Assembly: GCF_034627025.1 (NCBI RefSeq)
Contig: NZ_CP141048.1
Location: 4,602,001-4,666,000 of the forward strand
Reading direction: 5' to 3'
Source: Microvirga lotononidis
Lineage (GTDB): Bacteria > Pseudomonadota > Alphaproteobacteria > Rhizobiales > Beijerinckiaceae
DNA: 64,000 nt
Below the pieces are notes generated by a model. It was not told where the DNA came from, did no database searches, and worked only from the letters and a program-made list of their open reading frames with translations. The number at the start of each line of letters is the position of its first letter. Within the stretch, counting starts at the first letter, position 1. Below are positions 38,432 to 53,607 of this stretch, piece after piece. The position numbers and the translations under genes were made by a program.

Positions 38432-40848
38432 GGATTTTCCCTCGTGCGTCTCTTGCCGCTCGCGCGACGGGACGATCCCTGCCTTACTTCGATCCCAGGG
38501 TGTTCGTCTTCCTCGCGTTCCACCAGCGTCAAAGTGATCGGCTCAGCCTTGGTCCTGCCTTGGCTCGGATCCTCGGCCAGAAGGTGTCGGATCTCGCCGA
38601 GCAGAGCGACTTGCTTGGCATTGGCTTCGATCCGACCCTCGACATGGCCGAGCATGTCGAGCAGCATGCGCCGATCGACCGATGTCCGCAGGAGCTTGGG
38701 AAGCGCCAGAAGCGCCTTCACCGGCTCGAAATCGACGATGTAGGACTGCTCGCGAATGATTTCGCGGGCCGTCTCGGTCGGCATGTCGAGCAATCCGACA
38801 TCCTGGCCGACGAGTTCTCTCGCTCGCTTCATAGCCGAGAGCCGCCGCCGGCCGGTACCGGCCTTCATCAGCAGAAGGGCGGCACGGACCATGGCTTCCG
38901 TTCGATCCCCTTCTTCGATGCGCGCCAGCGCCTCCTTCACGAAGGGAGCATTGCGGACATCGGTCGGCTCCTCCGCGACGGTACCCTTATCTTCTGCGGC
39001 CATTCCCATGCCGGCAGGACCATAGATGCGGAAGAACGTATTCTCGACCGCCGCATCGCGCAGATCGCGAAAGAGATCCCATGAGGCGGAGACCATGGCG
39101 GCGCTAGAGCGCTCCATCCTTGCTGCAGGCCCCTCATTGTCGCGAGGCGCCCGGTTTGCCTTGGCAATATCCGCGGCACCCTTCAGTGGCCAGAAGAAGG
39201 GATTGAGATCGGACACGGCCCACCGCTGAAACCTTTGAGGATTGAACGCCCTGGCAATGCCGGCTGCCGCAGGTGTGACCGTCGGTGCAAGAAAGGGATG
39301 AACGAAGGTCTCATAAGCGGCGGCGAGCATCTCCGAGGTTTTCTCGACTGCCTCGAACGGCATTTCGTCCTTACGGCCGTATTTCTGCAGCGCTTGCAAG
39401 TCTTCGACGCGCATCTCCGTCAGCGTCACATCGTAGTGCAGGCTACCATCTGGCGACTTCTGATCCTCGATCTGCATGCCGTACAGCCCCGGCGGCAGGT
39501 GCTCGATATAATCGATCAGGTCTACGATGTGGGTGTATTCCTTCTTGGCGACTGCCCCGGAGACGAAGATACCGAGATGACCTACACTCTTGTGCATCAG
39601 ACCGACGATGACCTGTCCATTGGCCTTGAGAGCCTCGGTGGTCGGATACAGGTCAGCTACCCAGTTGAAGGCCTGCTGCGGAGGCGTGATATTGTCGCCC
39701 AATGATGCGAACAGGATGATGGGCGACCTGATCGACCGAAGATCGAACGCGCGCCCCTCGGACCACTCGGCATCGCCGTCAGCCAGGTTGTTTCCGACGA
39801 ACAGATTCTCGACGATCCATTTGATCTCCTGCCGGTTCATGAGGAAGAATCCGCCCCACCAGCGCTCGAACTCCAGGAAGCGCTCGGGCTCGGTGTCGAT
39901 CTTCGAGAAGAGCGTATAATATTTGTCGAAATAGGTATTGGCAGGGTTGAGGTACTCGAAATTCTCGACCAAGGAAGCGCCATCGAATTTCCCGGCACCA
40001 AGGTCGCTGGCGAGAAGAGCCGGCCAGAGGCCGCCGAGAAGCCCGCCCGCGTAACGCATCGGGTTCTCGCCATCGTTACCGGCCCAGTACGACATGGGCG
40101 CGCCGTTGATCACGATCGGGCCGACGAGGTCCGGCTCGACGGCGCCGACCAGCATGGAGGCCCAGCCTCCTTGGCAGTTGCCGAACAGGACGGGCTTGCG
40201 CGTCTTGGGATGACGTTCTCCGACGATGCGAAGGAATTCCGCTTCTGCGCGGGAGACGTCCGCGAGGGTCTGGCCGGGCATTGGCTCGGGGAAGAAGATC
40301 ACGAAGTAGACAGGGTGTCCGGCCTTGAGCGCTACGCCGACCTGCGAAGCCTCCTTGAACCCGCCGATGCCGGGCCCGTGGCCAGCGCGCGGGTCGATGA
40401 TGACGAAGGGACGGCGGTTCGGATCAGTCCTGACGCCAGCCGGCGGGACGATGCTCACCAGAGCATAGTTCACGGGCCGTTCGAACGAGCGGGCATCCGC
40501 AACGATCTCCCATTCGAAAGCGAGCAGAGGCGGCTTTCCAGCTTTCTCATGCTCGATCCAATTGTTGCCGCGCTGGCGCAGGGTGTCCCAAAACAGAACG
40601 GAGCGCTGAGTCGCGTCGAGCCAATAGGCACTGGCATCCCGCCACAGGTCGAGGGGCGATCCCGAGCGAGCCGCCCCGTCCCTCCAAGGCTCGGTGGCAG
40701 CTCTCACGGCGTCGAAGTAGCGTTCGAATGCGGTCGCGCAGCGCTCGTGATAGACCTGCGCGACCTTGGCTTGCGCCCGGCCAAGCTCCACCACAAGCTC
40801 CGGCCTGCCGTCATGTCGTTCGTCGCTACTGGATTCGACTTGCTGCAT
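38428..40848 (-). CDS. DUF3141 protein with PHA-synthase-like alpha/beta-hydrolase core
   Basis: An 806-residue cytoplasmic protein. The core has an alpha/beta-hydrolase nucleophile elbow GNCQGGW, i.e. G-x-C-x-G, the cysteine form used by polyhydroxyalkanoate synthases rather than the serine of lipases. RAGHGPGIGGFKEASQVGVA precedes it and HKSVGHLGIFVSGAVA supplies a candidate catalytic His. The N-terminal region (ERYFDAVRAATEPWRDGAAR) resembles phasin/PhaC N-termini. Family function is unknown; a role in polyester or acyl transfer is inference. I chose the ATG at 40848 (MQQVESSS); an ATG at 40905 would overlap the previous gene. Confidence 0.85.
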   Translation of the reverse strand: MQQVESSSDERHDGRPELVVELGRAQAKVAQVYHERCATAFERYFDAVRAATEPWRDGAARSGSPLDLWRDASAYWLDATQRSVLFWDTLRQRGNNWIEHEKAGKPPLLAFEWEIVADARSFERPVNYALVSIVPPAGVRTDPNRRPFVIIDPRAGHGPGIGGFKEASQVGVALKAGHPVYFVIFFPEPMPGQTLADVSRAEAEFLRIVGERHPKTRKPVLFGNCQGGWASMLVGAVEPDLVGPIVINGAPMSYWAGNDGENPMRYAGGLLGGLWPALLASDLGAGKFDGASLVENFEYLNPANTYFDKYYTLFSKIDTEPERFLEFERWWGGFFLMNRQEIKWIVENLFVGNNLADGDAEWSEGRAFDLRSIRSPIILFASLGDNITPPQQAFNWVADLYPTTEALKANGQVIVGLMHKSVGHLGIFVSGAVAKKEYTHIVDLIDYIEHLPPGLYGMQIEDQKSPDGSLHYDVTLTEMRVEDLQALQKYGRKDEMPFEAVEKTSEMLAAAYETFVHPFLAPTVTPAAAGIARAFNPQRFQRWAVSDLNPFFWPLKGAADIAKANRAPRDNEGPAARMERSSAAMVSASWDLFRDLRDAAVENTFFRIYGPAGMGMAAEDKGTVAEEPTDVRNAPFVKEALARIEEGDRTEAMVRAALLLMKAGTGRRRLSAMKRARELVGQDVGLLDMPTETAREIIREQSYIVDFEPVKALLALPKLLRTSVDRRMLLDMLGHVEGRIEANAKQVALLGEIRHLLAEDPSQGRTKAEPITLTLVEREEDEHPGIEVRQGSSRRASGKRRTRENP

Positions 40849-40883
40849 GGCACTTGTCCCGCCGAAGGTTACTGCCGAGGCGT

Positions 40884-41396
40884 TCAGTTCTTGGTGTCGC
40901 CCCATTTAAGGAAAAAGCCGACATCACCCGGCAAGCCACCCGGCCATTCGATGATCAGGGCACTCAGCCGGAACCCCGCAGGACGGAGTTGGTCGCGCCA
41001 GAGTTCGTAAGCCTGCCGCGGGCGTCCGATCAGGGTTTCGGGCCAAGCCGGATCCGCGTTGTTGATCGCCCGGCCATGGTCGGTGCACAGGGCGTTGGGA
41101 AAGCGCATGACCATCAGCTCGGTCTGCCCGCGCTCTGCCGCCGCGCGCAGCTTCGCCTTCAGCGGCTGGAGGATGTCCCGCAACGCCTCAGGCGTCAGGG
41201 TGAGCGGCTCGGACAGGCGCTTGACTAAGTCCTGGCGTGCCTTCTCGGCACGGTCCATGCCCTCGACCGACTTGGTGGCCTTCGCCATCTGCATCTCGGT
41301 CATGTAGTTCCGCAGATCGCCCGCCGACATGAACGTCTCATCCCCAAGCTCCTGCTCGGCGCTGGACACATCCGCCTTCGTCTTCACGGTTTCCAT
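40884..41396 (-). CDS. Hypothetical protein of the acetate/DUF3141 operon
   Basis: A 170-residue soluble protein. The N-terminal half is helical and charged (FMSAGDLRNYMTEMQMAKAT), the C-terminal half has a compact domain (ELMVMRFPNALCTDHGRAIN, LIGRPRQAYELWRDQLRPAG and FRLSALIIEWPGGLPGDVGF). It sits 17 bases behind ackA and 35 before DUF3141. I do not recognise the family; its constant place between them suggests a shared role. Confidence 0.7.
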   Translation of the reverse strand: METVKTKADVSSAEQELGDETFMSAGDLRNYMTEMQMAKATKSVEGMDRAEKARQDLVKRLSEPLTLTPEALRDILQPLKAKLRAAAERGQTELMVMRFPNALCTDHGRAINNADPAWPETLIGRPRQAYELWRDQLRPAGFRLSALIIEWPGGLPGDVGFFLKWGDTKN

Positions 41397-41413
41397 GGCA
41401 TCAATCTCCGTGG

Positions 41414-42622
41414 TCAGGATGCAAGTTTGGCTTGCGCCGTGCCAAGCACGCTGCGCGTTTGCCGGGCGATCACCAGTTCTTCATTGGTCGGGATGATCCA
41501 CGCGGCCGGTCCGGATCCGCCGGAAATACGCGGCCTGCCGGAACGATTGGCGGCTTCGTCGAGCACGAAGCCCGCCCACGCAAGGCCGGCCAGCACCTCA
41601 GATCGGGTTGCTACGTCGTTCTCGCCGATGCCGCCGGTGAAGACGAGGCCATCGAGCCCGCCAAGCGCCGCCACGAGTGACCCGACTTCCCGGGTGATGC
41701 GGTATACAAAAAGGTCGATGGCGCGCTTGGCATCTGGATTGGTTTCTGCGTTCGCCCGCAGCACCCGCATGTCGTTCGACAAGCCGGACACTCCGAGAAG
41801 GCCGGACTTCGTGTAGAGCATGCGCTCTGCCTCATCCGGGCTAAGATTCATCTCTCGGAGCATGTAGAATACAACCCCTGGATCGACGGCTCCGCAGCGC
41901 GTTCCCATAGGAAGGCCGTCGAGGGCCGAGAAGCCCATCGTGGTGGCGATGCTCGCACCCTTGTGGAGTGCACAGAGACTCGCACCGTTCCCGAGATGCG
42001 CGACGACCACCCTCCCCTCCGCGAGACTTGGATCGTAATCCTTGAGCACGGATGAAATGTAGTCGTAGGACAGCCCGTGAAAGCCGTAGCGACGCACACC
42101 GCGCTCGCGCATCTCGCGCGGGAGGGCGAACATCCTGGCGATTTCGGGCTGTGCTTGATGGAAAGCAGTATCGAAGCAGGCGACTTGCGGCAACCCCGGC
42201 AAGCGCCGACGGACGATCCGGATCGGCTCCAGGTTATGGGGTTGATGCAGGGGGGCCAGCGGCACCAGCGTTTCCAAAATCTCAACCACGGCTTCGTCAA
42301 CGACGACTGGGCCGGAGAAGGTTTCGCCGCCATGGACGACCCGGTGCCCGATAGCCGCGAGCCTGCGCCCCTCCTGATGCTGCCGCAGCCATGCGATGAG
42401 ATGCATCAGCGCCTCCTCGTGGCCGAGCCGGTCACCGGAGCTCCACGTCATCTCGTCCAGGAGCTGACCGCTGGCGTCCTTGACGACGAAACGTGCCGAT
42501 CCTCCCAGCCCCTCGAACAATCCTTTGAATGCGACGCGAGGGTCAGCGCCGTCGGGCGTGTCATACACCTGGAACTTGAGGCTCGAGGAGCCGGCGTTGA
42601 GAACGATGAGGACGGGCATCAT
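41414..42622 (-). CDS. ackA: Acetate kinase
   Basis: A 402-residue ASKHA-fold enzyme forming ATP from acetyl phosphate (or the reverse). Motifs: VLNAGSSSLKFQVYD at the start, GHRVVHGG, AHLGNGASLCA, MGTRCGAVDPG and the adenosine-site FTGGIGEND. Normal length. Three bases separate its start from the phosphotransacetylase stop, making a pta-ackA pair that yields ATP by substrate-level phosphorylation from acetyl-CoA. Expected to matter under oxygen limitation, in keeping with the ATP synthase regulators nearby. Confidence 0.96.
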   Translation of the reverse strand: MMPVLIVLNAGSSSLKFQVYDTPDGADPRVAFKGLFEGLGGSARFVVKDASGQLLDEMTWSSGDRLGHEEALMHLIAWLRQHQEGRRLAAIGHRVVHGGETFSGPVVVDEAVVEILETLVPLAPLHQPHNLEPIRIVRRRLPGLPQVACFDTAFHQAQPEIARMFALPREMRERGVRRYGFHGLSYDYISSVLKDYDPSLAEGRVVVAHLGNGASLCALHKGASIATTMGFSALDGLPMGTRCGAVDPGVVFYMLREMNLSPDEAERMLYTKSGLLGVSGLSNDMRVLRANAETNPDAKRAIDLFVYRITREVGSLVAALGGLDGLVFTGGIGENDVATRSEVLAGLAWAGFVLDEAANRSGRPRISGGSGPAAWIIPTNEELVIARQTRSVLGTAQAKLAS

Positions 42623-42625
42623 GGC

Positions 42626-43603
42626 TCACACCTCCGGGACGGCGAGTTGCTTGCGCTGCACATCGGCCACGAGCGAAGCCACGGCACAGGAAGCCAGGCG
42701 CGTGATCGTCGAGTCCGCCCTGCTGGTGAGGATGACCGGGACCCGTGCCCCGAGCACGATGCCGGCAGCGTCCGCGTCGGCCAGGAAGGTCAGGCTCTTG
42801 GCAAGCATGTTGCCGGCTTCGAGATCGGGTACGACCAGCACGTTCGCCTGCCCGGCGACGGGCGACTGGATCTTCTTGATCTTCGCCGCGCCGAGATCGA
42901 TGGCGTTGTCGAGCGCCAGGGGGCCGTCCAGGATGGCACCTGTAATCTGCCCGCGGTCGGCCATCTTGCACAGGGCCGCGGCCTCGATGGTCGAGGGCAC
43001 CTTCGGGTTGACCGTCTCCATCGCCGAAAGGATTGCTACCCGGACTGGATCGACCCGCATCGCCCGGGCCAGATCGATGGCATTCTGGACGATGTGGACC
43101 TTGTCCTCCAGCGTCGGCGCGATGTTGACCGCCGCGTCCGTGATGATGAGGGCCGTCTCGTGATAGGGGACATCCATCACGAAGCAATGGCTGATCCGGC
43201 GTGCGGTCCGCAGGCCGCCCTCGCGGCGAACCACCGCGCCCATGAGCTCGTCCGTATGCAGACTGCCCTTCATCAGCGCCTCTGCCTCGCCGGCCCTGAC
43301 GATGTCCACAGCTCTCTCGGCCGCTGCATGGCTATGCGGAGCATCGACGATGCGCATCGTGGCGACCGACTTGCCTAAAGCCTGTGCGGTGCCCGTGATC
43401 TTGGCCTGCGGCCCGACGAGAATCGGATCGATCAGGCCGAGCTCGACCGCCTCGAACACGGCACCCAACGAGGCAGCATCGCAGGGATGCGCCACCGCAA
43501 CCTTCAGCTTCTGCAGGGACTGCGCCGTTGCCACCAGCCGGTCGTATTTCAGGTGCTGGCGCGTTGGCTGAGTGGAACTCTGAGTTGATGTCACAACCGT
43601 CAT
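42626..43603 (-). CDS. pta: Phosphate acetyl/butyryltransferase
   Basis: A 325-residue enzyme converting acyl-CoA and phosphate to acyl phosphate and CoA. Blocks: VEAVELGLIDPILVGP-like segment, ALMKGSLHTDELMGAVV, SHCFVMDVPYHETALIITDA and GARVPVILTSRADS. It corresponds to the catalytic domain alone; the MaoC-like N-terminal domain found in many Hyphomicrobiales bifunctional versions is absent. The start MTVVTSTQSS at 43603 is chosen; the open frame upstream is non-coding. First gene of the minus-strand array. Confidence 0.92.
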   Translation of the reverse strand: MTVVTSTQSSTQPTRQHLKYDRLVATAQSLQKLKVAVAHPCDAASLGAVFEAVELGLIDPILVGPQAKITGTAQALGKSVATMRIVDAPHSHAAAERAVDIVRAGEAEALMKGSLHTDELMGAVVRREGGLRTARRISHCFVMDVPYHETALIITDAAVNIAPTLEDKVHIVQNAIDLARAMRVDPVRVAILSAMETVNPKVPSTIEAAALCKMADRGQITGAILDGPLALDNAIDLGAAKIKKIQSPVAGQANVLVVPDLEAGNMLAKSLTFLADADAAGIVLGARVPVILTSRADSTITRLASCAVASLVADVQRKQLAVPEV

Positions 43604-44012
43604 AGTCGCCTCTGATCCCGTTGTCCTATGACCAGCCGCCGGAGTGGCTACCAGTGCCCACGCAATCGCCGACATACCGACATTGCTTAATTTGGACCTC
43701 GCGGGGTCGTCTGCTTGACCCGTTGAGCCAATGTTTTGACAATTTGGGACGAGGCCGTATCGCCTCGCGGCGAAGGTGGTGACTGGATTGCTACCGCCTT
43801 CTTCGACGACCGCTTTGACATTTCGCAAGCTGGTCGACGTCCCTCGGAAGTTCGGCTCGTGAGGGGCAGAGGTGCCACAACTTCCGCAACACCGATCGTA
43901 TTTCATCGGTCAGCCGGTAGATGCGTCCGTCATCTTGGCGCTCGGTAGAGCGGTTTGAGGCGGACGATGACACAGTTCCGCCACAAACAAAGGCGAATTG
44001 ACCTTAGCAATG
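43604..44012. other. Divergent intergenic region pta / glycine riboswitch 1
   Basis: 409 bases that should hold promoters for the minus-strand metabolic array and for the riboswitch-led transcript. Short open frames occur on both strands but none resembles a known protein. No clear promoter boxes were found. Confidence 0.4.
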
Positions 44013-44192
44013 AGCGGGAGAGAGCCAGTCCGCTGGCCGCCGAAGGAGCAACTGCCCCGGAAACTCTCAGGCACCAAGGACCGCTTCATTGTCTGACACT
44101 CTGAAAAGTGGAGCATCTTGCTCCCGCCCATGGTGAAAGTCGCCGCCGGCTCCCCTGGCTGCGATGAAGCTCTCAGGCCAATGACAGAGGGG
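44013..44192 (+). ncRNA. Tandem glycine riboswitch 1 (gcvT element, two aptamers)
   Basis: Aptamer 1 (44013-44085): P1 stem AGCGG/CCGCT, GGGAGAG, the core CCGAAGGAGCAA and AACTCTCAGGCACC. Aptamer 2 (about 44096-44192): ACTCTGAAAAG, then GATGAAGCTCTCAGGCC and ATGACAGAGGG. This is the classic cooperative glycine riboswitch with linker. It points toward the PBP1a gene at 44529, about 340 bases downstream. The gcv genes usually controlled by this element are absent. A GGCTCC/GGAGCC stem follows without a T-run, so control may be on translation or by a more distant platform. Confidence 0.9.
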
Positions 44193-44237
44193 GCTCCCGC
44201 CGTAGCATCGACAGCGGCCCATGACGGAGCCTGACAA

Positions 44238-44336
44238 ATGCCCTCCCCAGCACCCACAATCCACGACACGTCGCATCCGCCGAGACATTCGTTAAGGCAT
44301 CCAATGCGTCAAATGCTGGCGCATCTGCGCTGCTGA
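44238..44336 (+). CDS. Possible leader ORF after glycine riboswitch 1
   Basis: A 32-codon frame starting MPSPAPTIHDTSH. Its start context, GGAG-N8-ATG, is repeated exactly after the second riboswitch although the encoded peptides differ. It may be a leader peptide or a start region left from a lost gene. Confidence 0.2.
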   Translation: MPSPAPTIHDTSHPPRHSLRHPMRQMLAHLRC

Positions 44337-44350
44337 CGCGCTAAGCTTTC

Positions 44351-44584
44351 TCACTCGCGCCGATTTATCATCTCGACGGCACGCATCGCGTGCTGCGTGA
44401 ACGCGGCTGCCCGATCGCTCGGAATCCGCACGCGGTCGCGCGCGGGAAGGTTCTCAACGCCTCCTTTCATCATCGTGCGCGAGTCTTCGTGACAGCGCTG
44501 GAACTCGCTCAAAACCTCGGGGCTCGCGATGCGCTTCGTTCTCCGCTTCATCGGCTTTGCCGCAGCCTTGGCCTCACTCGCCAT
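44351..44584 (-). CDS. Possible small protein antisense to the PBP1a leader
   Basis: A 77-codon frame with GC-rich third positions and natural composition (RIASPEVLSEFQRCHEDS, then FTQHAMRAVEMINRRE). It overlaps the start of the PBP1a gene by 56 bases on the other strand (23 if an internal ATG at 44551 is used). No homologue is known to me. It may be real or a mirror of leader sequence. Confidence 0.3.
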   Translation of the reverse strand: MASEAKAAAKPMKRRTKRIASPEVLSEFQRCHEDSRTMMKGGVENLPARDRVRIPSDRAAAFTQHAMRAVEMINRRE

Positions 44585-46943
44585 GGTCAGCGTCGCGCTG
44601 GCCGTCGGATTCGTCCTATGGCACCTCTCTTCCGATCTGCCCGACCACGCAGAGCTCGCGCGCTATGAACCCGCGATGACGACGCGCCTGCATGCCGCCG
44701 ACGGAAGAATAATCGCCGAATATGCGCGCGAGAACCGACTGTACCTGCCCCTGGCAGCCATGCCGCGGCGGATCACCGCCGCCTTCCTGTCGGCGGAAGA
44801 CAGACATTTTTACGAGCACAACGGGATCGATCTCATGGGCATCGGTCGTGCACTGCTCGCCAATCTCGCGAGCAACGCAGGTCGGCCGCAAGGAGCATCG
44901 ACGATTACACAGCAGGTCGCCAAGAACATCCTCCTGTCACGCGAGCAGACCTACAGCCGCAAACTCAAGGAAATCCTGCTCGCCTTCCGGATCGAGGAGA
45001 CATTCACCAAGGACCGTATTCTCGAACTCTACCTGAACGAGATCTATTTCGGCATGGGACACTACGGGATTGCTGCGGCTGCGTTGGGGTACTTCGACAA
45101 ATCCGTCCATGAATTGAGCCTGGCGGAGATCGCCTATCTCGCCGCCCTTCCGAAGGGACCGAACAACTACCATCCGCTCCGCCGGCCCGAGGCGGCAATG
45201 AACCGCCGCAATTGGGTTTTGGAGCGTATGGCTGCCAACGGCTATATCGGGCAAGACGAGGCTGATGTGGCAATGGAAGAGGCGCTCGTCGTCAATCCGC
45301 GCACAGTATCGCCCCATGAAACTCACGCAGACTACTTCGCCGAGGAGGTCCGGCGTGAACTCGCGAACCGCTACGGTGAAGCGGCCCTCTATGAGGGCGG
45401 GATGTCCGTTCGAACGACGCTCGACCCGAAGATGCAGGCTGCAGCCCGTAAGAGTCTTGTGGATGGCTTGGTCAGCTTCGACGAGACCCGGGGCTGGCGC
45501 GGAACAGCCGTCCGACTTCCCTCGGTGGAAGGAGATTGGGGCCTGAAGCTTGCTGAGCTGCCGACATTCGAGGACATCCGCCCCTGGCGACAGGCTGTCG
45601 TTCTCTCGGTCGACGCGAAGAGCGCTCGTATAGGTCTGCGACCGGACAGGGATGCTGCCGGTGAGATCGAGGCCCCGCGCTTTATAGGGCGGATTACGGG
45701 CCAAGGGATACGCTGGACGGGAAAAAGCCGCATGGGCGACGTTCTACGCGTCGGCGACATCGTTCATGTCGAGCCCTTCAGGAAAGCTTCGAACGAGTAC
45801 CGCTTGAGGCAGATCCCCGAAATCTCCGGAGCCTTGGTCGCGCTGGAGCCCGACACGGGGCGCATCCGCGCCATGGTGGGCGGCTTCTCGTTTCGTCAGA
45901 ACGAGTTCAACCGTGCCACCCAGGCTTGGCGCCAACCAGGCTCGACCTTCAAAGCGATCGTCTATGCGGCAGCCTTGGACAACGGTTACACGCCTTCGAG
46001 CCTCGTTCTCGATGCGCCTTTGTCCATTACGCAGGGTGCTGGACAGGCCCCATGGTCCCCGGTCAACCACAACGGGCGCTACGACGGCCCGTCCACGCTT
46101 CGCATGGGGCTCGAGCGTTCCAAGAACGTAATGACAGTCAGGCTCGCACGTGACATCGGCATGCCGCTCATCGCCGACTATGCGCGCCGCTTGGGCGTCC
46201 AAGACGATCTGCCGCCGCTGCTTTCGATGGCGCTGGGCGCCGGTGAAACCACGGTGCTGCGGATGACGACGGCCTACGCGATGCTCGTCAATGGTGGCCG
46301 TTACATCCGACCGACCCTCATCGAGCACATTCAGGACCGGCATGGGACCACGATTTTCCGGCATGACCAGCGGTCATGCTCCGGCTGCTCCATACGCCCC
46401 TGGAGCAACCAGCCGGCTCCTAATCCAAATGACAAGACAGAACAGGTGATCGATCCGCTCACCGCCTATCAGGTGACCTCCCTCCTCCAGGGCGTCGTCG
46501 AGCGCACGTTGCCGCGTGTATTCTCAGGCTTCGACAGGCCGCTCGCGGGAAAGACCGGCACGACCAACGATGCTAGGGATTTGTGGTTCGTCGGCTCCAC
46601 GCCGGAACTCGCCGTTGGCGTTTTCCTAGGATCTGATCGGCCCCGCTCGATGGGGAAGTCCGCCTACGGCTCCGGATATGCAGCACCCATTGCCCGAGCG
46701 TTCCTCGAGCAGGCGCTCGCAGGCAAGCCCCACACCGCCTTTCGTGTTCCGTCTGGGATCAAACTGATCCCGGTCGATCCTTACACTGGCAAGCGCACCG
46801 CCACTCGCAATGCAATTCTTGAGGCGTTCAAGCCGGGCACGGAGCCGCCGGTGGCTGAGCCTCCAGCCGTTGCCGACGAGCTGCCGACCGGCATCTCGGC
46901 CTGGGAGGCCCACACCCCTCCCGGCTTCATCCACCTCCAATGA
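44529..46943 (+). CDS. mrcA: Penicillin-binding protein 1A (bifunctional transglycosylase/transpeptidase)
   Basis: An 804-residue class A PBP that polymerises and crosslinks peptidoglycan in the periplasm, anchored by an N-terminal helix (FAAALASLAMVSVALAVGFV). The glycosyltransferase domain shows SAEDRHFYEHNGID, GASTITQQVAKNILL and KEILLAFRIEETFTKDRILE. The transpeptidase domain shows S-x-x-K in RQPGSTFKAIVYAA, S-x-N in ERSKNV and K-T-G-T in AGKTGTTNDA. Shorter than many PBP1A. It follows a glycine riboswitch and is followed after 18 bases by an FtsI-like gene, suggesting glycine-responsive wall synthesis. Confidence 0.95.
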   Translation: MRFVLRFIGFAAALASLAMVSVALAVGFVLWHLSSDLPDHAELARYEPAMTTRLHAADGRIIAEYARENRLYLPLAAMPRRITAAFLSAEDRHFYEHNGIDLMGIGRALLANLASNAGRPQGASTITQQVAKNILLSREQTYSRKLKEILLAFRIEETFTKDRILELYLNEIYFGMGHYGIAAAALGYFDKSVHELSLAEIAYLAALPKGPNNYHPLRRPEAAMNRRNWVLERMAANGYIGQDEADVAMEEALVVNPRTVSPHETHADYFAEEVRRELANRYGEAALYEGGMSVRTTLDPKMQAAARKSLVDGLVSFDETRGWRGTAVRLPSVEGDWGLKLAELPTFEDIRPWRQAVVLSVDAKSARIGLRPDRDAAGEIEAPRFIGRITGQGIRWTGKSRMGDVLRVGDIVHVEPFRKASNEYRLRQIPEISGALVALEPDTGRIRAMVGGFSFRQNEFNRATQAWRQPGSTFKAIVYAAALDNGYTPSSLVLDAPLSITQGAGQAPWSPVNHNGRYDGPSTLRMGLERSKNVMTVRLARDIGMPLIADYARRLGVQDDLPPLLSMALGAGETTVLRMTTAYAMLVNGGRYIRPTLIEHIQDRHGTTIFRHDQRSCSGCSIRPWSNQPAPNPNDKTEQVIDPLTAYQVTSLLQGVVERTLPRVFSGFDRPLAGKTGTTNDARDLWFVGSTPELAVGVFLGSDRPRSMGKSAYGSGYAAPIARAFLEQALAGKPHTAFRVPSGIKLIPVDPYTGKRTATRNAILEAFKPGTEPPVAEPPAVADELPTGISAWEAHTPPGFIHLQ

Positions 46944-46961
46944 TGCGCGTCGGGTAAAGCG

Positions 46962-48599
46962 ATGGCAGGTTCTCCGTTCAGGCTCGCGATCGACCGCGCT
47001 CCCGGCCGTATCCGGCTGGCGACTTATGGGTTCACTGCCCTGTTTTCCATGATTGCCGTGCAGCTCGTCACCCTTGGTCTCGAACCATATGAGCCGCGCG
47101 CGGTCTCCCCGAACCCAATCGCGCAGGTGAGGCCCGAAATCATCGACCGCAACGGCATCGTTCTTGCCAAGGACCTCGACCTCTTCTCCGTCTACGCCGA
47201 ACCGCGGCGGATCATCGACATTGACGAGGCGGTGGAAGGACTGACCGAGGTGTTCAATGACATCGATCCGGGGGAGCTGCGCCGCAAGCTTATGTCGGGA
47301 TCGGGTTTCGCATGGATCAGGCGCTCGATCGCGCCTTCCGTCGCAGACCGGGTCTGGTCGCTCGGCTTAGCCGGAATTCACCTCCGGCGGGAACCGACAC
47401 GTGTTTACCCCAACGGGGCTGCCGCAGCTCATGTTCTTGGGGCTGTCGACATCGACAACCGGGGCGTGGCCGGCATCGAGACATGGATCGACGCCACTTC
47501 GAGTGCACATGAACCTGAATCCACCAAGGCAATGGGGGACGTTACCAGCCCGAGCGTCCGGCTCAGCATCGATCTCCGCATCCAGCACATCTACGCAGAG
47601 CACCTTCGCTCCGCACTTCGGACCTACGACGCTATCGGGGCGGCAGGCCTCGTCCTCGACGTCACCAATGGAGAGATCATCGCCCTTGTGTCGTTACCCG
47701 ACTTCGATCCGAATGATCCGGGGCTGGCGCTGCATCCGGACCGCATCAATCGGATGCAGGTCGGCCGCTATGAAATGGGTTCGATCTACAAGGCCCTGAC
47801 GACCGCGCTCGCATTGGACACCGGGCTGTTCACGCTCGATTCCACCTTCGATGCCAGCCGACCGCTTTCCATCGGCGGCGCCAGCATCGATGATTTTCGT
47901 GGCAAGAGGCGGGTCCTGACCCTGCCCGAGAGCTTCATCTACTCGTCGAACATCGCCATGGGCCAAATGGCGCTGGCCATCGGCGCGCCCAGGATCCAGT
48001 CCTTCTTGAAGGTGCTGGGACAATACGACAGGATCAAAACGGAACTCTCGGAGAGTTCCACTCCAATCGTACCGTCGCGGTGGAGCAACGTTACGACCGC
48101 GACGGTTGCCTTCGGCCACGGCATCGCAGTCACGCCACTTCAGGGGGCCATGGCCTTGGCTGCATTGGTAAACGGCGGGAATGTGATCACTCCTACCTTC
48201 CTGGCCGAACGCGGGCTCGGCGAGCGCCTGCGCGCCCAAGGCGTTGTCAAGCCTGAAACCGCTGCGATCTTGCGCGACCTGATGCGCCTGAATGTCGAGG
48301 CCGGATCGGCTCGCCGGGCGGCGCTTGATCCCATCCGGATCGGCGGTAAGACAGGAACATCCGAGAAGGTGGTCGGCGGTGTCTACTCCAAGGAGAAAGT
48401 CATGACGTTCTTCGTCGGGGTCGCCCCTATCGACTCGCCGCGTTACCTGTTCCTGACGATCCTTGATGAACCGAGCGGTCTGCCGGAAACCTTTGGTTTT
48501 CGCACGTCGGGATGGAACGCCGTTCCAGTAACCCGGCGCGTCATGGGCGAAGCCCTGCCCTTGCTAGGCATTCCGTCCTGGACCACTTTGGCAAACTGA
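46962..48599 (+). CDS. FtsI/PBP2-like peptidoglycan D,D-transpeptidase (class B PBP)
   Basis: A 545-residue monofunctional transpeptidase with one N-terminal membrane helix (FTALFSMIAVQLVTLGL) and a PBP dimerisation region (VRPEIIDRNGIVLAKDLDLF). The active-site motifs are S-x-x-K in YEMGSIYKALT, SSN in FIYSSNIAM and K-T-G-T in GGKTGTSEK. It is similar to FtsI but not in a dcw division cluster, so it is probably a second, condition-specific copy. Co-transcribed with PBP1A upstream and the TRIC-type protein downstream. Confidence 0.9.
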   Translation: MAGSPFRLAIDRAPGRIRLATYGFTALFSMIAVQLVTLGLEPYEPRAVSPNPIAQVRPEIIDRNGIVLAKDLDLFSVYAEPRRIIDIDEAVEGLTEVFNDIDPGELRRKLMSGSGFAWIRRSIAPSVADRVWSLGLAGIHLRREPTRVYPNGAAAAHVLGAVDIDNRGVAGIETWIDATSSAHEPESTKAMGDVTSPSVRLSIDLRIQHIYAEHLRSALRTYDAIGAAGLVLDVTNGEIIALVSLPDFDPNDPGLALHPDRINRMQVGRYEMGSIYKALTTALALDTGLFTLDSTFDASRPLSIGGASIDDFRGKRRVLTLPESFIYSSNIAMGQMALAIGAPRIQSFLKVLGQYDRIKTELSESSTPIVPSRWSNVTTATVAFGHGIAVTPLQGAMALAALVNGGNVITPTFLAERGLGERLRAQGVVKPETAAILRDLMRLNVEAGSARRAALDPIRIGGKTGTSEKVVGGVYSKEKVMTFFVGVAPIDSPRYLFLTILDEPSGLPETFGFRTSGWNAVPVTRRVMGEALPLLGIPSWTTLAN

Positions 48600-48629
48600 T
48601 CCCGGAATCTCATGATGGATTTCTGACTG

Positions 48630-49277
48630 ATGTTCGACACCTTCACCGCCTTGCTCGACTGGTTCGGGATCATCGTCTTCGCCACCACCGGAGCGCTGGT
48701 TGCCTCGCGCAAGCAGATGGATCTGGTTGGCTTCGTGCTCCTCGGCACTGCCACCGGGATCGGCGGCGGAACGATCCGGGATACACTGATCAACGCGCTT
48801 CCTGTCTTCTGGGTACGGGAGCCGGCCTACCTGATCACTTGTGTGCTCGTATCCTCCACTGTGTTCTTTCTCGCCCATGTTCCACAGTCGCGGCTCAAGC
48901 TCCTGCTGTGGTGCGACGCAGTCGGCATGGCTTTATTCGCGGTGACCGGGGCCGAGAAGGCGCTGCTGGCGGACGCAGGTGTCATCGTCGCTGTCGCCAT
49001 GGGTGTCATCACGGCCACCTTCGGTGGCATCGTCAGGGATATCCTAGGTGGCGAGAGCCCGGTCATACTCAGCCGCGAGATCTATGTGTCGGCGGCGCTG
49101 GGCGGGGCGACGATCTTCGTGACCGGGGTCTCGGTCGGCATTTCGCGTGAGTTCTCGCTCGCCAGCGGCTTCCTGGCTGCATTCACGATCCGAGCGGCGG
49201 CGCTGCGGTGGAACTGGTCTCTTCCGCGCTACCGGCCTCGGCCCGGACGCACGCGGGATGAGATCAATCGCAGTTGA
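48630..49277 (+). CDS. TRIC/UPF0126 family membrane protein (glycine-transporter type)
   Basis: A 215-residue inner-membrane protein with about seven helices and the internal duplication of this family: LVGFVLLGTATGIGGGTIRD and GVITATFGGIVRDILGG, each with the G-G-x-x-R-D motif. Members of this family are frequently placed behind glycine riboswitches and are annotated as glycine transporters or trimeric cation channels. Here it is the third gene behind riboswitch 1 (30 bases after the FtsI-like gene). It could export or import glycine. Confidence 0.9.
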   Translation: MFDTFTALLDWFGIIVFATTGALVASRKQMDLVGFVLLGTATGIGGGTIRDTLINALPVFWVREPAYLITCVLVSSTVFFLAHVPQSRLKLLLWCDAVGMALFAVTGAEKALLADAGVIVAVAMGVITATFGGIVRDILGGESPVILSREIYVSAALGGATIFVTGVSVGISREFSLASGFLAAFTIRAAALRWNWSLPRYRPRPGRTRDEINRS

Positions 49278-49396
49278 TCTGACCCGTGACGGAGCATGTA
49301 ACCTGTGCCCCTTTCGCAACAGGCTGTGCCCTTCGAGATGCCTCGTTTGAAATCTCACAATTCTGCCTCAAACTGTTTTAATGTGCGGGGCACTGC

Positions 49397-49577
49397 AAGC
49401 GGGAGAGAGCCAGCGTGCTGGCCGCCGAAGGAGCAACCGCCCCGGAAACTCTCAGGCACCAAGAACCGCTTGTTGGTGAAACACTCTGAAAAGCGGAGCA
49501 TCGCGCTCCCGCCCACGGTGTAAGTCGTCGCCGGTTCCCTGGCTGCGATGAAGCTCTCAGGCCAATGACAGAGGGGG
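49397..49577 (+). ncRNA. Tandem glycine riboswitch 2 (gcvT element, two aptamers)
   Basis: Nearly identical to 44013-44192. Aptamer 1: P1 AAGCGG (49397-49402) / CCGCTT (49466-49471), CCGAAGGAGCAA, AACTCTCAGGCACC. Aptamer 2: ACTCTGAAAAGCGGAGC, GATGAAGCTCTCAGGCC, ATGACAGAGGG. It is followed by an intrinsic terminator (49575-49608), so glycine binding probably controls read-through into the L,D-transpeptidase gene at 49836. Confidence 0.92.
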
Positions 49578-49608
49578 CTCGCTTGCGATCTGCGTGCGGA
49601 GCCCTTTT
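49575..49608 (+). terminator. Expression-platform terminator of glycine riboswitch 2
   Basis: GGGCTC (49575-49580) pairs with GAGCCC (49599-49604) and four Ts follow. The left arm touches the last bases of aptamer 2, so folding of the aptamer and terminator are likely to compete. Confidence 0.6.
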
Positions 49609-49620
49609 GGAGCCTGAAGA

Positions 49621-49698
49621 ATGCCTATCCTGCCGATTCATCTGCGGACTTTCGCCAACGACATCCTCTGTAAACCGGCGCCAATTATCGCCGCCTGA
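49621..49698 (+). CDS. Possible leader ORF after glycine riboswitch 2
   Basis: A 25-codon frame starting MPILPIHLRTFAND, preceded by GGAG-N8-ATG as after riboswitch 1. The peptides differ, so conservation of the start context, not the product, is the observation. Confidence 0.2.
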   Translation: MPILPIHLRTFANDILCKPAPIIAA

Positions 49699-49835
49699 TC
49701 CGCTGCCGCACGACGCCGGCTCCGCGCTGGTGTGACTGCGCATGCGCGCTGCCCAGGATTTATTCAGCGCAACGGCGGCCGCGGGCTTCTGTGTCTCATC
49801 CCCTCAGCTCTTATTCAAAAAAGCAACCCATCCTC

Positions 49836-50558
49836 ATGACTTCTTTCCGTCTTCTCCTCCGTCGACTTCCATCCATGCGTGCCAAGGTGATCGGTATGAC
49901 GATGCTTGCTTCGGCACTCGCGGGTTGCATCTCCACACAGACGCCTCAGAATGCGGATCTCAAGTCGCCGCATCCGACCTACGTCGCTATGTACGGACCA
50001 CGGCCGGACGAGAAGTTTCCGCTTCCTGCCACTGATATTTCGTCCGTTGACCCGCAGTTCCTCAGACAGGAGGTCGCTTACAACACCTCGGAGCGCCCCG
50101 GTACCATCGTGGTCGATACGGCCAATCGCTACCTGTACCTCGTACGGGAGAACGGACGCGCGATCCGCTACGGCATCGGCGTGGGAGCCGAGGGCATGAA
50201 GTGGGCTGGGCGGGCGGAAGTGGGCCGCAAGGCGGAGTGGCCCCGCTGGACACCCACCGCTGCAATGATCAAGCGCGATCCCGAGCGTAACAGGCCCTGG
50301 GCGAACGGGATGCCTCCGGGCCCCAACAACCCCTTGGGGCCACGGGCGCTCTATCTCTTCCAGAACGGCCGAGATACCTTGTACCGGATTCACGGCACCA
50401 CCGAGCCCCACACCATCGGCGAGGCGGTGTCGAGCGGCTGTATCCGCATGCTCAATCCCGACATCCTCGACCTCTACAGCCGCGTTCCGGTCAGCAGCCC
50501 GGTCGTCGTTCTCCCCGACACGCGAACGGCCGATATGGGCGTCGAGCAATCCAGCTAA
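49836..50558 (+). CDS. L,D-transpeptidase lipoprotein (YkuD/ErfK type)
   Basis: A 240-residue lipoprotein that makes 3-3 peptidoglycan crosslinks or attaches proteins to peptidoglycan. A signal peptide ends in a lipobox (LASALAGC). The YkuD domain starts at GTIVVDTANRYLYLVRENG and carries the catalytic motif IHGTTEPHTIGEAVSSGCIR with His, Ser-Gly and Cys. ATGs at 49836 and 49875 are both possible starts; a GTG/ATG further up at 49791 is not needed. Located behind glycine riboswitch 2, so its amount is probably tuned by glycine. L,D-crosslinks do not need the D-Ala donor bond that glycine disrupts. Confidence 0.92.
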   Translation: MTSFRLLLRRLPSMRAKVIGMTMLASALAGCISTQTPQNADLKSPHPTYVAMYGPRPDEKFPLPATDISSVDPQFLRQEVAYNTSERPGTIVVDTANRYLYLVRENGRAIRYGIGVGAEGMKWAGRAEVGRKAEWPRWTPTAAMIKRDPERNRPWANGMPPGPNNPLGPRALYLFQNGRDTLYRIHGTTEPHTIGEAVSSGCIRMLNPDILDLYSRVPVSSPVVVLPDTRTADMGVEQSS

Positions 50559-50892: not shown

Positions 50893-51732
50893 ATGAGCCG
50901 ATTGGATGCCATCAAGACGAAACGAGATCCGTCCGAACCACGAAAGGATTCCGCGCCTCCCATGAAGCGGAAGGAGTTCGAGAGCGAGCTGAGAACGCTC
51001 CAGGTCGAACTCGTCCGCCTCCAAACCTGGGTCAAGGCGACGGGCGCGAGGATCATCGTGATCTTCGAGGGCCGCGACACCGCCGGCAAGGGCGGGGTGA
51101 TCAGCCGCATCACCCAGCGCGTCAGCCCCCGGGTGTTTCGGCATATAGCTCTGCCGGCGCCGACCGAGCGCGAGAAGAGCCAGCTCTACATCCAGCGCTA
51201 CATTGCCCAGTTCCCGGCCGCAGGCGAGATCGTGCTGTTCGACCGCTCCTGGTATAACCGGGCCGGAGTCGAGCGCGTCATGGGCTTCTGCACCGACGAT
51301 GAATACGAACGCTTCATGCGACTCGTGCCACCTTTCGAGCGGGAGATCGTCGAGAACGGCATCATCCTGCTCAAGTACTTCCTCGATGTGAGCCAGGACG
51401 AGCAGCGCCGCCGGTTCGCCGATCGGATCGAGGATCCGATCAAGCATTGGAAGCTCAGTCCGATGGACACCGAGTCGGTGCGTCGCTGGTGGGATTACAC
51501 GCTGGCCTACCAGGATATGCTGCGCGCGACCGACACGCCGCATGCTCCCTGGTTCGTCGTGCCATCCGACGACAAGCGCCGCGCACGTCTCAACCTGATT
51601 GCCCATCTGCTGAGCCAGATACCATATAAGCGGATCAAGCTCGACCTGCCGAAGGTCCCGAAGGCCGAGCCGCGGCCAAAGCGCGCCGAGGATGGTCTGC
51701 CGGCCAAGATCGTCGTTCCGACGCGATACTAA
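50893..51732 (+). CDS. ppk2: Polyphosphate kinase 2
   Basis: A 279-residue cytoplasmic kinase that transfers phosphate between polyphosphate and nucleoside diphosphates or monophosphates. The P-loop IIVIFEGRDTAGKGGVI, the FDRSWYNRAGVERVMGF Walker B/lid region and RRRFADRIEDPIKHWKLSP define the single-domain PPK2. The lid and length suit class I, but class assignment needs a tree. The sulfate-transporter frame starts directly after its stop. Confidence 0.95.
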   Translation: MSRLDAIKTKRDPSEPRKDSAPPMKRKEFESELRTLQVELVRLQTWVKATGARIIVIFEGRDTAGKGGVISRITQRVSPRVFRHIALPAPTEREKSQLYIQRYIAQFPAAGEIVLFDRSWYNRAGVERVMGFCTDDEYERFMRLVPPFEREIVENGIILLKYFLDVSQDEQRRRFADRIEDPIKHWKLSPMDTESVRRWWDYTLAYQDMLRATDTPHAPWFVVPSDDKRRARLNLIAHLLSQIPYKRIKLDLPKVPKAEPRPKRAEDGLPAKIVVPTRY

Positions 51733-53607
51733 GTGTCAAGACGCATAAACCGGAACGCGGCCATGGTCGGCATTCCCCCAGCAGATCGTCTCCCCTCGAG
51801 CCGGCAGGAGGCTGCGCCTGTTCCGTTCGAGCATGGAGGCAGAGCGACGGAAGGGCATGCGGCTCGAAGCCACGGCGATCCGGAAGGAGTGTCGGTTGTC
51901 CGCGGGATCAGCCATGATTCCAGCTGGTTGCGCTGGCTGCCCGGACTGAAAACTCTTCTTCGGTATGAACCCTCATGGCTCGGACATGACATCGTCGCCG
52001 GGTTGGTCTTGGCGACGATGCTCGTCCCAGTCGGGATCGCCTATGCCGTGGCATCCGGCCTCCCGGGCATCTGCGGCCTTTACGCCACGATCGTCCCGCT
52101 GTTGGCTTATGCGGTCTTTGGCCCTAGCCGCATCCTCGTCCTCGGCCCGGACTCCGCTCTTGCAGCCGTCATCCTCGGCATCGTGCTCCCCCTGTCCGGC
52201 GGAGATCCGCAGCGCGCCATTGCCCTGGGTGGCCTGATGGCGCTCGTATCAGGGACGGTTCTGATCCTCGCGGGTCTCGCACGACTCGGCTTCGTCACCG
52301 AACTCCTGTCGAAGCCAATCCGCTACGGCTACATGAACGGCATCGCACTGACCGTCCTGATCAGCCAGCTCCCCAAACTCTTCGGCTTCTCGGTCGAAAG
52401 CACAGGGCCGCTGCGTGATCTGTGGGCGATCGGCGGGGCCATCTTGGACGGCCGAACGAATTGGGTGGCACTTGCAATCGGCTTGGGGACACTGGCGACC
52501 ATCCTGCTGCTGCGGGGCAACAGGCGTGTGCCCGGTATCCTGGTTGCCGTTGTCGGCGCTGTGCTCCTCGTCAGCCTGTTCGACCTCGCAGACCGCCACA
52601 ATGTATCAATCCTTGGCTCCCTGCCCCAAGGCCTCCCCAGTTTCGCGTTTCCCTGGATCAGACTCGACGACCTTGTTCCCGTACTGATCGGCGGCTGCGC
52701 CGTGGCCATGGTATCGTTCGCCGATACCAGCGTGCTTTCGCGCGCCTACGCCGCGCGGATGCATACCGCCGTGGACCCCAACCAGGAAATGGTGGGGCTG
52801 GGTGCGGCCAATCTCGCGACCGGCTTTTTTCAGGGCTTCCCGATCAGCAGCAGCAGCTCGCGCACGCCCGTGGCTGAAGCCGCCGGTGCACGCACGCAAT
52901 TGACCGGCATCGTGGGCGCACTCGCCATCGCCCTTCTGCTGCTGATGGCCCCTGACCTTCTGCGGAACCTGCCGAATGCCGCCTTGGCCGCAGTTGTCAT
53001 CGCATCGGCCATAGGGTTGTTCGAAATAACCGACCTCAAACGGATCTATCAGATCCAGCGCTGGGAGTTCTGGCTCTCGATCGCCTGCTTTGCCGGAGTT
53101 GCGGTATTCGGCGCCATTCCTGGAATCGGCCTGGCGATCGTGATCGCGGTGATCGAGTTCCTATGGGACGGTTGGCGTCCCTATTCCGCCATCCTGGGGC
53201 GTCCGGCCGGCGTCGAGGGATACCATGACATCACACGCTATCCGGAAGCGCATCGGATCCCCGGTTTGGTCCTGTTCCGCTGGGATGCGCCATTGTTCTT
53301 TGCCAATGCGGAGCTTTTCCGCGAGCGCGTGCTTGCTGCCGTGGCGGAATCCCCCACACCAGTCCGATGTGTGGTTGTCGCAGCCGCTCCCGTCACGAGC
53401 GTTGATGTGACAGCGGCCGATGCGCTGACGGAGCTTGACGAGGCCCTGCTGGCGCAAGGCATCGAACTCCGGTTCGCCGAACTCAAGGACCCTGTCAAGG
53501 ACAAGCTGCGGCGGTTCGGCGTGTTCGATCGGTTCGGCGAGACGCGTTTTTCCCCCACAATCGACGCCGCCGTTTCGCGATTTCACCGGCAACATGGCGA
53601 GGCTTGA
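51733..53607 (+). CDS. SulP-family anion transporter with C-terminal STAS domain
   Basis: A 624-residue inner-membrane transporter (sulfate, bicarbonate or other anions). The SulP core is visible: VAGLVLATMLVPVGIAYAVA, GLYATIVPLLAYAVFGPSR and GFFQGFPISSSSSRTPVAEA, in about 10-12 helices. The C-terminal STAS domain includes VTSVDVTAADALTELDEALL. The N-terminus is unusually long (about 75 residues before the first helix). GTG at 51733 directly follows the ppk2 stop; an in-frame ATG at 51763 is an alternative. Confidence 0.9.
   Translation: MSRRINRNAAMVGIPPADRLPSSRQEAAPVPFEHGGRATEGHAARSHGDPEGVSVVRGISHDSSWLRWLPGLKTLLRYEPSWLGHDIVAGLVLATMLVPVGIAYAVASGLPGICGLYATIVPLLAYAVFGPSRILVLGPDSALAAVILGIVLPLSGGDPQRAIALGGLMALVSGTVLILAGLARLGFVTELLSKPIRYGYMNGIALTVLISQLPKLFGFSVESTGPLRDLWAIGGAILDGRTNWVALAIGLGTLATILLLRGNRRVPGILVAVVGAVLLVSLFDLADRHNVSILGSLPQGLPSFAFPWIRLDDLVPVLIGGCAVAMVSFADTSVLSRAYAARMHTAVDPNQEMVGLGAANLATGFFQGFPISSSSSRTPVAEAAGARTQLTGIVGALAIALLLLMAPDLLRNLPNAALAAVVIASAIGLFEITDLKRIYQIQRWEFWLSIACFAGVAVFGAIPGIGLAIVIAVIEFLWDGWRPYSAILGRPAGVEGYHDITRYPEAHRIPGLVLFRWDAPLFFANAELFRERVLAAVAESPTPVRCVVVAAAPVTSVDVTAADALTELDEALLAQGIELRFAELKDPVKDKLRRFGVFDRFGETRFSPTIDAAVSRFHRQHGEA

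Follow-up and report, generated by a model that had tools for sequence, protein, structure and literature searches.

Paralogous tandem glycine riboswitches precede accessory cell wall synthesis genes in Microvirga

We analysed a stretch of 64,000 nucleotides from the genome of Microvirga lotononidis (contig NZ_CP141048.1, positions 4,602,001 to 4,666,000; hereafter the window) that carries two tandem glycine riboswitches, RS1 (44005-44197) and RS2 (49390-49581), in front of genes for cell wall synthesis. RS1 leads a row of genes for an accessory class A penicillin-binding protein (PBP1A-2), an FtsI-like transpeptidase and a TRIC/UPF0126 membrane protein. RS2, which starts 112 nt after the end of the TRIC gene, leads a gene for a YkuD L,D-transpeptidase (LDT) lipoprotein, LDT-2 (Table 1). 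The RNA family is a known one, but genes of this kind are new among its targets and the platform is altered. Comparison of the sequences provides good support both for the identity of the riboswitches and for their linkage to wall genes.

The sequence-only reading had recognized two nearly identical two-aptamer glycine riboswitches on the plus strand, and both withstand a covariance search with RF00504. All four window aptamers exceed the curated Rfam cut-off of 32 bits in Infernal, the second aptamers also when scanned singly, and RS1 and RS2 agree in 171 of the 198 columns of their alignment (86%). RS1 and RS2 each consist of two adjacent aptamers, as given by the coordinates, and one platform, as read from the sequence; both elements are real, although their starts had been placed 7-8 nt too late. 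The second aptamers were listed by the whole-genome search and not by scans of the window, probably because each overlaps its first aptamer by 3 bases. Across the 7.3 Mb genome (4 contigs) there are six aptamer matches, which form three tandems, the third leading a gcvT operon. The earlier remark that glycine cleavage genes are absent therefore holds for the window but not for the genome, where gcv genes lie elsewhere in an operon that has a riboswitch to itself.

Table 1. Features of the RS1 and RS2 units, in window coordinates.
Feature	Position	Strand	Evidence and remarks
Upstream element ACAGTTCCGCCACAAAC before RS1	43972..43988	+	Candidate promoter or activator site
RS1 aptamer 1	44005..44093	+	RF00504, 60.4 bits, E 5.1e-10
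RS1 aptamer 2	44091..44197	+	RF00504; derived core (GCCCATGG for GCCGAAGG); 41.1 bits in genome search, 35.9 alone
RS1 platform hairpin GGGCTCC/GGAGCCT	44191..44232	+	Holds Shine-Dalgarno GGAG (44226-44229); 7-pair stem, shuffle p 0.016
Leader open reading frame after RS1	44238..44336	+	32 codons; opened by the RS1 Shine-Dalgarno sequence; out of frame with PBP1A
PBP1A-2, bifunctional class A penicillin-binding protein, accessory paralog, 804 aa	44529..46943	+	PF00912, PF17092, PF00905
FtsI-like monofunctional transpeptidase, 545 aa	46962..48599	+	PF03717, PF00905; motifs SIYK, SSN, KTG
TRIC/UPF0126 membrane protein, 215 aa	48630..49277	+	PF03458, two stretches
Upstream element ACAATTCTGCCTCAAAC before RS2	49357..49373	+	Same genome-wide and window matches as the element before RS1
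RS2 aptamer 1	49390..49478	+	RF00504, 64.6 bits, E 4e-11
RS2 aptamer 2	49476..49581	+	RF00504; derived core as in RS1; 43.8 bits in genome search, 36.7 alone
RS2 hairpin GGGCTC/GAGCCC, then TTTT	49575..49608	+	Weakly terminator-like; read from sequence
Leader open reading frame after RS2	49621..49698	+	25 codons; Shine-Dalgarno GGAG and ATG
LDT-2, YkuD L,D-transpeptidase lipoprotein	49836..50558 (longest reading frame from 49791)	+	PF03734, 86.7 bits

The domain assignments confirm the tight row of wall genes that had been seen behind RS1, with gaps in the list of open reading frames (ORFs) of 18 nt between the PBP1A and FtsI-like genes and 30 nt between the FtsI-like and TRIC genes. PBP1A-2 scores over the cut-off of TIGR02074 and carries the active-site motifs STFK, SKN and KTG. 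No NCBIfam model for FtsI, PBP2 or SpoVD is above cut-off for the FtsI-like protein, and where a relative that is 74-85% identical comes from a named record, that record is Microvirga. It is 43-44% identical to the products of FtsI-like genes in two Rhizobiaceae bins; judged by eye, the genes around these two belong to a division cluster, and we found no such riboswitch there (at L087 the contig begins inside the gene). The protein is thus probably a spare class B penicillin-binding protein and not the division FtsI. LDT-2 has an SSGC motif with the catalytic cysteine and a lipobox read by eye, and NCBIfam equivalogs such as LdtE score under cut-off. Its start is more likely at 49836 than at 49791, because aligned relatives carry an ATG there. 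The PF03458 label, glycine transporter, is a name only; UPF0126/TRIC proteins are described as cation channels in parts of a structural paper (PMC5477506). Divergent to RS1, the minus strand at 38428-43906 encodes a PhaC-like protein (by eye), acetate kinase and phosphotransacetylase, and downstream of LDT-2, on its own strand, lie genes for a PPK2 polyphosphate kinase and a SulP transporter (50893-53607).

We surveyed 48 Microvirga genomes using R1, a model built for the second aptamer of the wall-type elements. There are 29 matches at 66-121 bits, against 33-46 bits for the others (mainly gcvT-type), and these 29 are made up of 15 RS1, 12 RS2, an extra aptamer 2 in G068 and an element in G062 of a type that leads PF01266-like enzyme genes. 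Extending the sequence-only reading to relatives in this way, we found RS1 upstream of PBP1A-2 in 12 of the 13 genomes that have this protein (77-100% identity; the G018 copy is in pieces at 75-87%), and an R1 match 0.21-0.29 kb upstream of all 11 copies of LDT-2 (at least 77% identity), which are spread over 10 genomes. A housekeeping PBP1A, 57-60% identical to the window PBP1A, is present in 48/48 genomes, and comparison of listed coordinates by eye placed no wall-class riboswitch beside any of them. The same comparison found none beside the 50 listed closest LDT paralogs (63-71% identity; 47 genomes, G007 not among them). Fisher tests on the linkage, with 0/48 entered for both paralog groups and the LDT entry approximate, ignore shared descent.

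Wall-type elements occur in 21 of the 48 genomes, and the operons that they lead vary in composition. The forms are RS1-PBP1A-FtsI-TRIC, RS1-PBP1A-TRIC, RS1-Pal-PBP1A (G004 and G007) and RS1-TRIC (G032), the Pal-type gene being one between RS1 and PBP1A for which membership of the OmpA family (PF00691) was shown in G004. In eight genomes another L,D-transpeptidase gene (46-57% identical, partial in G032) stands directly before RS1. Decay is seen in G062, where the PBP1A match after RS1 covers 61 residues, in G001, where RS1 stands without any gene of the set close by, and in G064, which has a degenerate RS2 and no LDT-2 match. One strain, VF16, carries the unit on a plasmid (pMVF16-5, L081). 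At L058 and L062, RS2 and LDT-2 are followed by multisubunit cation/proton antiporter genes (Pfam for L058; similar ORF lengths for L062). Separately, at L040 (G046) a glycine riboswitch precedes a gene whose product resembles L-serine dehydratase by eye.

Beyond the genus, we searched a sample of 397 genomes of the order with R1 at an E threshold of 1e-8. Matches occur in 36 of these genomes, the window genome included, with 37 matches outside the window genome, of which 20 were examined as fetched loci (19 genomes) and 10 as short loci. Four of the fetched loci lead wall genes, eleven a homolog of a PF01266-like enzyme and five gcv genes; gcv genes also adjoin the ten short loci. The four wall-type units, from four different families, are RS-LDT-TRIC in G176 and G253, RS-LDT in G345 and RS-PBP-FtsI in G289. 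A class sample of 289 genomes added one more, TRIC-RS2-LDT in G513 (82% complete), at 84-86% identity. A tree of the riboswitches places these four nearest the clade of Microvirga RS1 and RS2, in a position between that clade and the other two types (PF01266 and gcv), though support is modest.

The PF01266-like targets form a subclass of their own. In Hyphomicrobiales, tandem riboswitches of this type lead homologs of FAD oxidoreductases of the D-amino-acid dehydrogenase or glycine oxidase type (L117, L118, L122-L124, L126-L130, L132 and L101), the Pfam assignment having been made on a reference protein to which the others are homologs. At L037, L060 and L061, in three Microvirga genomes, another riboswitch precedes targets that look similarly PF01266-like by eye (Pfam for L060).

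We compared the second aptamers in an alignment, A1, of 22 of the 27 wall-class loci (RS1 of G062 and G068 and RS2 of G064, G067 and G068 lie outside it). The core of aptamer 1 is canonical in RS1 and RS2. In aptamer 2, Infernal marks core changes and non-standard pairs, and CTCTGAAAAG, GCCCA-GGTG and GACAGAGGGGGC are invariant in 22/22. The canonical CCG of P3 has its G changed to C in all 22, which breaks a pair, whereas the G is retained in all 15 rows of other types in alignment A2. On these alignments, the derived aptamer 2 common to RS1 and RS2 is a new feature of the Microvirga elements. It is conceivable, if rather unlikely, that this aptamer has lost binding or changed its ligand, so that glycine would act through aptamer 1 only or two ligands would be sensed. 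The altered P3 and the mismatched pairs flagged by Infernal point that way, but each of five wall-type second aptamers scanned alone still passes the RF00504 cut-off. Moreover, loss need not matter: in Bacillus subtilis, regulation was kept in vivo after mutation of the aptamer 2 pocket, as far as the cited parts of that study go (PMC5666159), so the canonical aptamer 1 may suffice in RS1 and RS2. Two further observations concern the history of this aptamer. The middle of the window RS1 aptamer 2 (44094-44197) is nearer to RS2 than to other RS1 copies, as if sequence had been exchanged, and in G068 (Microvirga subterranea; L096, L082) a tandem duplication of 195 bp has added another copy of aptamer 2 ahead of PBP1A-2 and yields a three-aptamer riboswitch.

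The platform hairpin of RS1 directly follows P1 of aptamer 2 and carries a Shine-Dalgarno (SD) sequence on its 3' strand, which is mostly paired in folding models. The letters of the platform stem are identical across all RS1, and the compensating changes come from comparison with PF01266-type elements: the strands co-vary between types, from GGGCTCC/GGAGCCT in RS1 to GGGCGTTC/GAGCGCCT, GGGCATTC/GGATGCCC, GGCTTCT/AGAAGCC and GGGTGC/GCACCT. A stem test on 41 rows, of which L105 duplicates the L049 element, gave 6-9 pairs in 35 rows and 4-5 pairs in 6 (one RS2, L123 and the outside wall-type L119, L120, L121 and L125); shuffle p values for RS1 stems were mixed (0.004-0.126). An origin of the GGAGCC-ATG block from gcvT was considered and rejected, as Microvirga gcvT leaders differ, and its counterpart is the SD-ATG of PF01266-type riboswitches.

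The leader ORF that the SD would open after RS1 is 30-33 codons long in all 13 aligned RS1, whereas in shuffled sequences on average 1.02 of the 13 had a length of 28-34 codons. This fixed length is only suggestive, because the sequences share ancestry and a pair of nearby TGA codons closes two of the three frames. We found no coding conservation in the leader peptide among the 13 aligned RS1, in one of which (L049) unrelated sequence begins soon after the leader start. After RS2 the leader has 29 codons in five of nine cases and other lengths in four, the window RS2 included. Outside the genus the SD-opened ORF has 9 (or 26) codons in G289, 5 in G345 and 4 in G176, and in G253 it is the LDT gene itself. 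An SD predicted to open a short leader ORF instead of the wall gene is a new feature in Microvirga, and a leader opened in place of the target suggests a relay. The sequence-only reading had also given RS2 a terminator ahead of a lipoprotein L,D-transpeptidase. The target stands as a YkuD lipoprotein, but just four T follow the weakly terminator-like hairpin, which falls short of the terminator scanner's rule; after RS1 the terminator scan detected none. C exceeds G downstream of RS1 and RS2, which prompts no more than the idea of a Rho site.

A further feature that, on the alignments, is new in Microvirga is a 17-nt upstream element, ACARTTCYGCCNCAAAC. With at most one mismatch allowed, the whole genome holds just two matches, one ahead of RS1 and one ahead of RS2; the window thus has 2 against 0 expected, and each ends 16 nt ahead of its riboswitch. 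A similar sequence stands ahead of all 22 aligned RS1 and RS2, and 21 of them fit a loose pattern. The element spans the likely -35 region and is followed in 16 of 22 cases by TAGATT or TAGGTT at the position of a possible -10 box, which the two in the window lack. In a direct-repeat test an 11-nt shift was the best of ten by weighted score (6.88 versus 5.37), whereas the plain score favours 10 nt. One might guess that the element is an activator site and, guessing further, that ChvI is the activator.

On balance we think it probable that through the paralogous riboswitches RS1 and RS2 a spare peptidoglycan set, PBP1A-2, the FtsI-like protein, TRIC and LDT-2, is controlled by intracellular glycine. 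The glycine-sensing wall regulon proposed from the window alone is strengthened by the conservation of riboswitch-wall gene coupling, both within Microvirga and in members of four further families, but that reading had overlooked the leader ORF, the upstream element, the gcvT riboswitch elsewhere in the genome and the fact that the wall genes are spare copies. We infer that glycine induces the set, that the leader acts as a relay and that the resulting wall tolerates glycine. Glycine, bound chiefly by the canonical aptamer 1, would free the leader SD, and translation of the leader would then allow expression of the downstream wall genes, an ON switch in which leader ribosomes perhaps shield the leader from Rho or a terminator. 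The D,D-side synthases would tolerate glycine-terminated precursors, and LDT-2 would add L,D-crosslinks. Such crosslinks form from the fourth stem residue, and a fifth residue as leaving group is therefore unneeded. The set would work beside the gcv riboswitch, which removes glycine. A fuller version, which we offer only tentatively since neither the stem-test result nor the upstream element extends to the wall-type units outside the genus, is a glycine-inducible alternative wall set that is accessory in Microvirga and older in Hyphomicrobiales, with a translated leader of fixed length and free sequence and a Microvirga promoter element that is possibly a wall-stress activator site. Spare synthases and L,D-crosslinking would then be made only when glycine threatens the wall.

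Several observations weigh against this explanation. No wall-class element is present in 27 of the 48 Microvirga genomes. In G032 the gene behind RS1 is TRIC, and the stretch fetched there holds no PBP match; in G001 it is followed by none of the wall-set genes in the fetched 15 kb; and G026 carries PBP1A-2 and TRIC without RS1. The aptamer 2 core deviates from consensus, platform stems of RS2 are no better than chance in shuffles (p 0.23-0.99), and the stem test gave the four wall-type elements outside the genus no better-than-chance platform helix. The ACARTTCYGCCNCAAAC element was not found before these four; in G176 an upstream look-alike has three mismatches (by eye). The riboswitch SD serves the leader ORF, which lies 192 nt from PBP1A. 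The region 43700-44560 holds three promoter-like matches (9 of 12), where 0.1 were expected, and two of them (44181-44208 and 44231-44260) fall within the RS1 platform and leader; the sequence-only reading had named a strong promoter between RS1 and 44529 as fatal to coupling, and with these two weak matches there a promoter in that interval is conceivable. Finally, forcing or forbidding aptamer 2 P1 in folding changed access to the SD little in RS1 and RS2. In eight Microvirga gcvT leaders the same comparison shifted SD access both ways, so it is without power on the direction of the switch, and comparison of P1 with an alternative helix in L120, L121, L125 and L134 gave no decision on direction.

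The prominence of TRIC raises the question of whether the riboswitches serve this protein, a supposed glycine transporter or cation channel, with PBP1A-2, the FtsI-like protein and LDT-2 as passengers. TRIC follows RS1 in 12 of the 15 RS1 genomes, stands directly behind it in G032, adjoins RS2 in several genomes and belongs to a family that bears the glycine transporter name. However, the fetched stretches around RS2-LDT of G006 C149 and G033, RS-LDT of G345 and RS-PBP-FtsI of G289 hold no TRIC match, in the RS1-Pal-PBP1A unit of G007 TRIC is on the opposite strand only, and RS2 lies upstream of LDT-2 in 11/11. We therefore regard a riboswitch for TRIC as unlikely.

The direction of control assumed in our explanation could also be reversed, with glycine shutting off a wall set used when glycine is scarce. 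Context predicts whether a glycine riboswitch is ON or OFF, and glycine turns uptake genes down, according to sections of one study (PMC6944388); the RS1 SD also stays paired in folding with aptamer 2 P1 formed. The folding is identical with P1 broken, which removes this support, and such OFF logic runs opposite to the toxicity of glycine for the wall, so that we judge an OFF switch improbable. Quite unlikely, in our view, is an RS1 uncoupled from the operon, which would make a short leader RNA or small RNA while PBP1A-2 used its own promoter downstream: the distance from leader to PBP1A, the promoter-like matches, the orphan RS1 of G001 and the intervening Pal gene would fit, but RS1 is linked to PBP1A-2 in 12/13 genomes, the conserved element is upstream of RS1 and conservation drops past the leader start.

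If glycine control of the spare set is correct, PBP1A-2, the FtsI-like protein and LDT-2 would gain a testable role, the use of glycine-ended precursors, and the locus would offer a natural glycine-responsive system for asking which transpeptidases accept glycine-ended stems. The use of glycine to weaken the walls of bacteria is an old practice. Polar growth in this order depends on PBP1a and L,D-crosslinks. In Caulobacter, exogenous glycine enters position 5 of peptidoglycan, and crosslinking is little affected at low and lowered at high glycine, according to the portions consulted (PMC3585186).

Within the open literature searched, no earlier case of a glycine riboswitch governing a wall regulon came to light, so this would be the first. 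Among titles and abstract openings, a search area that leaves aside subscription papers and supplements, we found no such regulon, and an open-paper search for glycine riboswitch, penicillin-binding protein and peptidoglycan returned only another riboswitch class. A survey of 324 sites gives glycine metabolism, glycine transport and serine metabolism as targets, and the word peptidoglycan does not occur in its main text (PMC3766115). Excerpts of other papers treat GCV and transport contexts (PMC6944388) and name malate synthase as a further target (PMC2211319).

RS1 and RS2 share with the tandem glycine riboswitches of gcvT operons and amino-acid symporter genes the RF00504 family, the tandem aptamers and the canonical core of aptamer 1. 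They differ in their targets, which are wall synthases and L,D-transpeptidases, in the derived aptamer 2 and in an SD that opens a leader ORF. The closest non-wall subclass is the PF01266-type riboswitches of Hyphomicrobiales, which have a similar aptamer 2 and, in most, an SD-hiding helix; there the SD opens the enzyme gene directly (11/11), and TTGAC (10/11) stands upstream where RS1 and RS2 have ACARTTCYGCCNCAAAC. The ChvG-ChvI regulon of Agrobacterium, in the same order, is alike in that wall stress alters L,D-transpeptidase transcripts, as passages of one report describe (PMC9731437), but it is governed by a two-component system rather than the RNA sensor proposed here, and a link to the element upstream of RS1 and RS2 is a guess. 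Riboswitch protection against wall-harming glycine is also seen in gcv detoxification in B. subtilis, on the evidence of the parts cited (PMC5666159). The known riboswitch answer is glycine breakdown, whereas here it is the genes for wall enzymes that the sensor precedes. Riboswitch-controlled gcv detoxification of glycine was reportedly also described in Streptomyces griseus by Tezuka and Ohnishi in 2014. In gcv detoxification glycine is removed; in Microvirga, we infer, it is the wall enzymes that would change.

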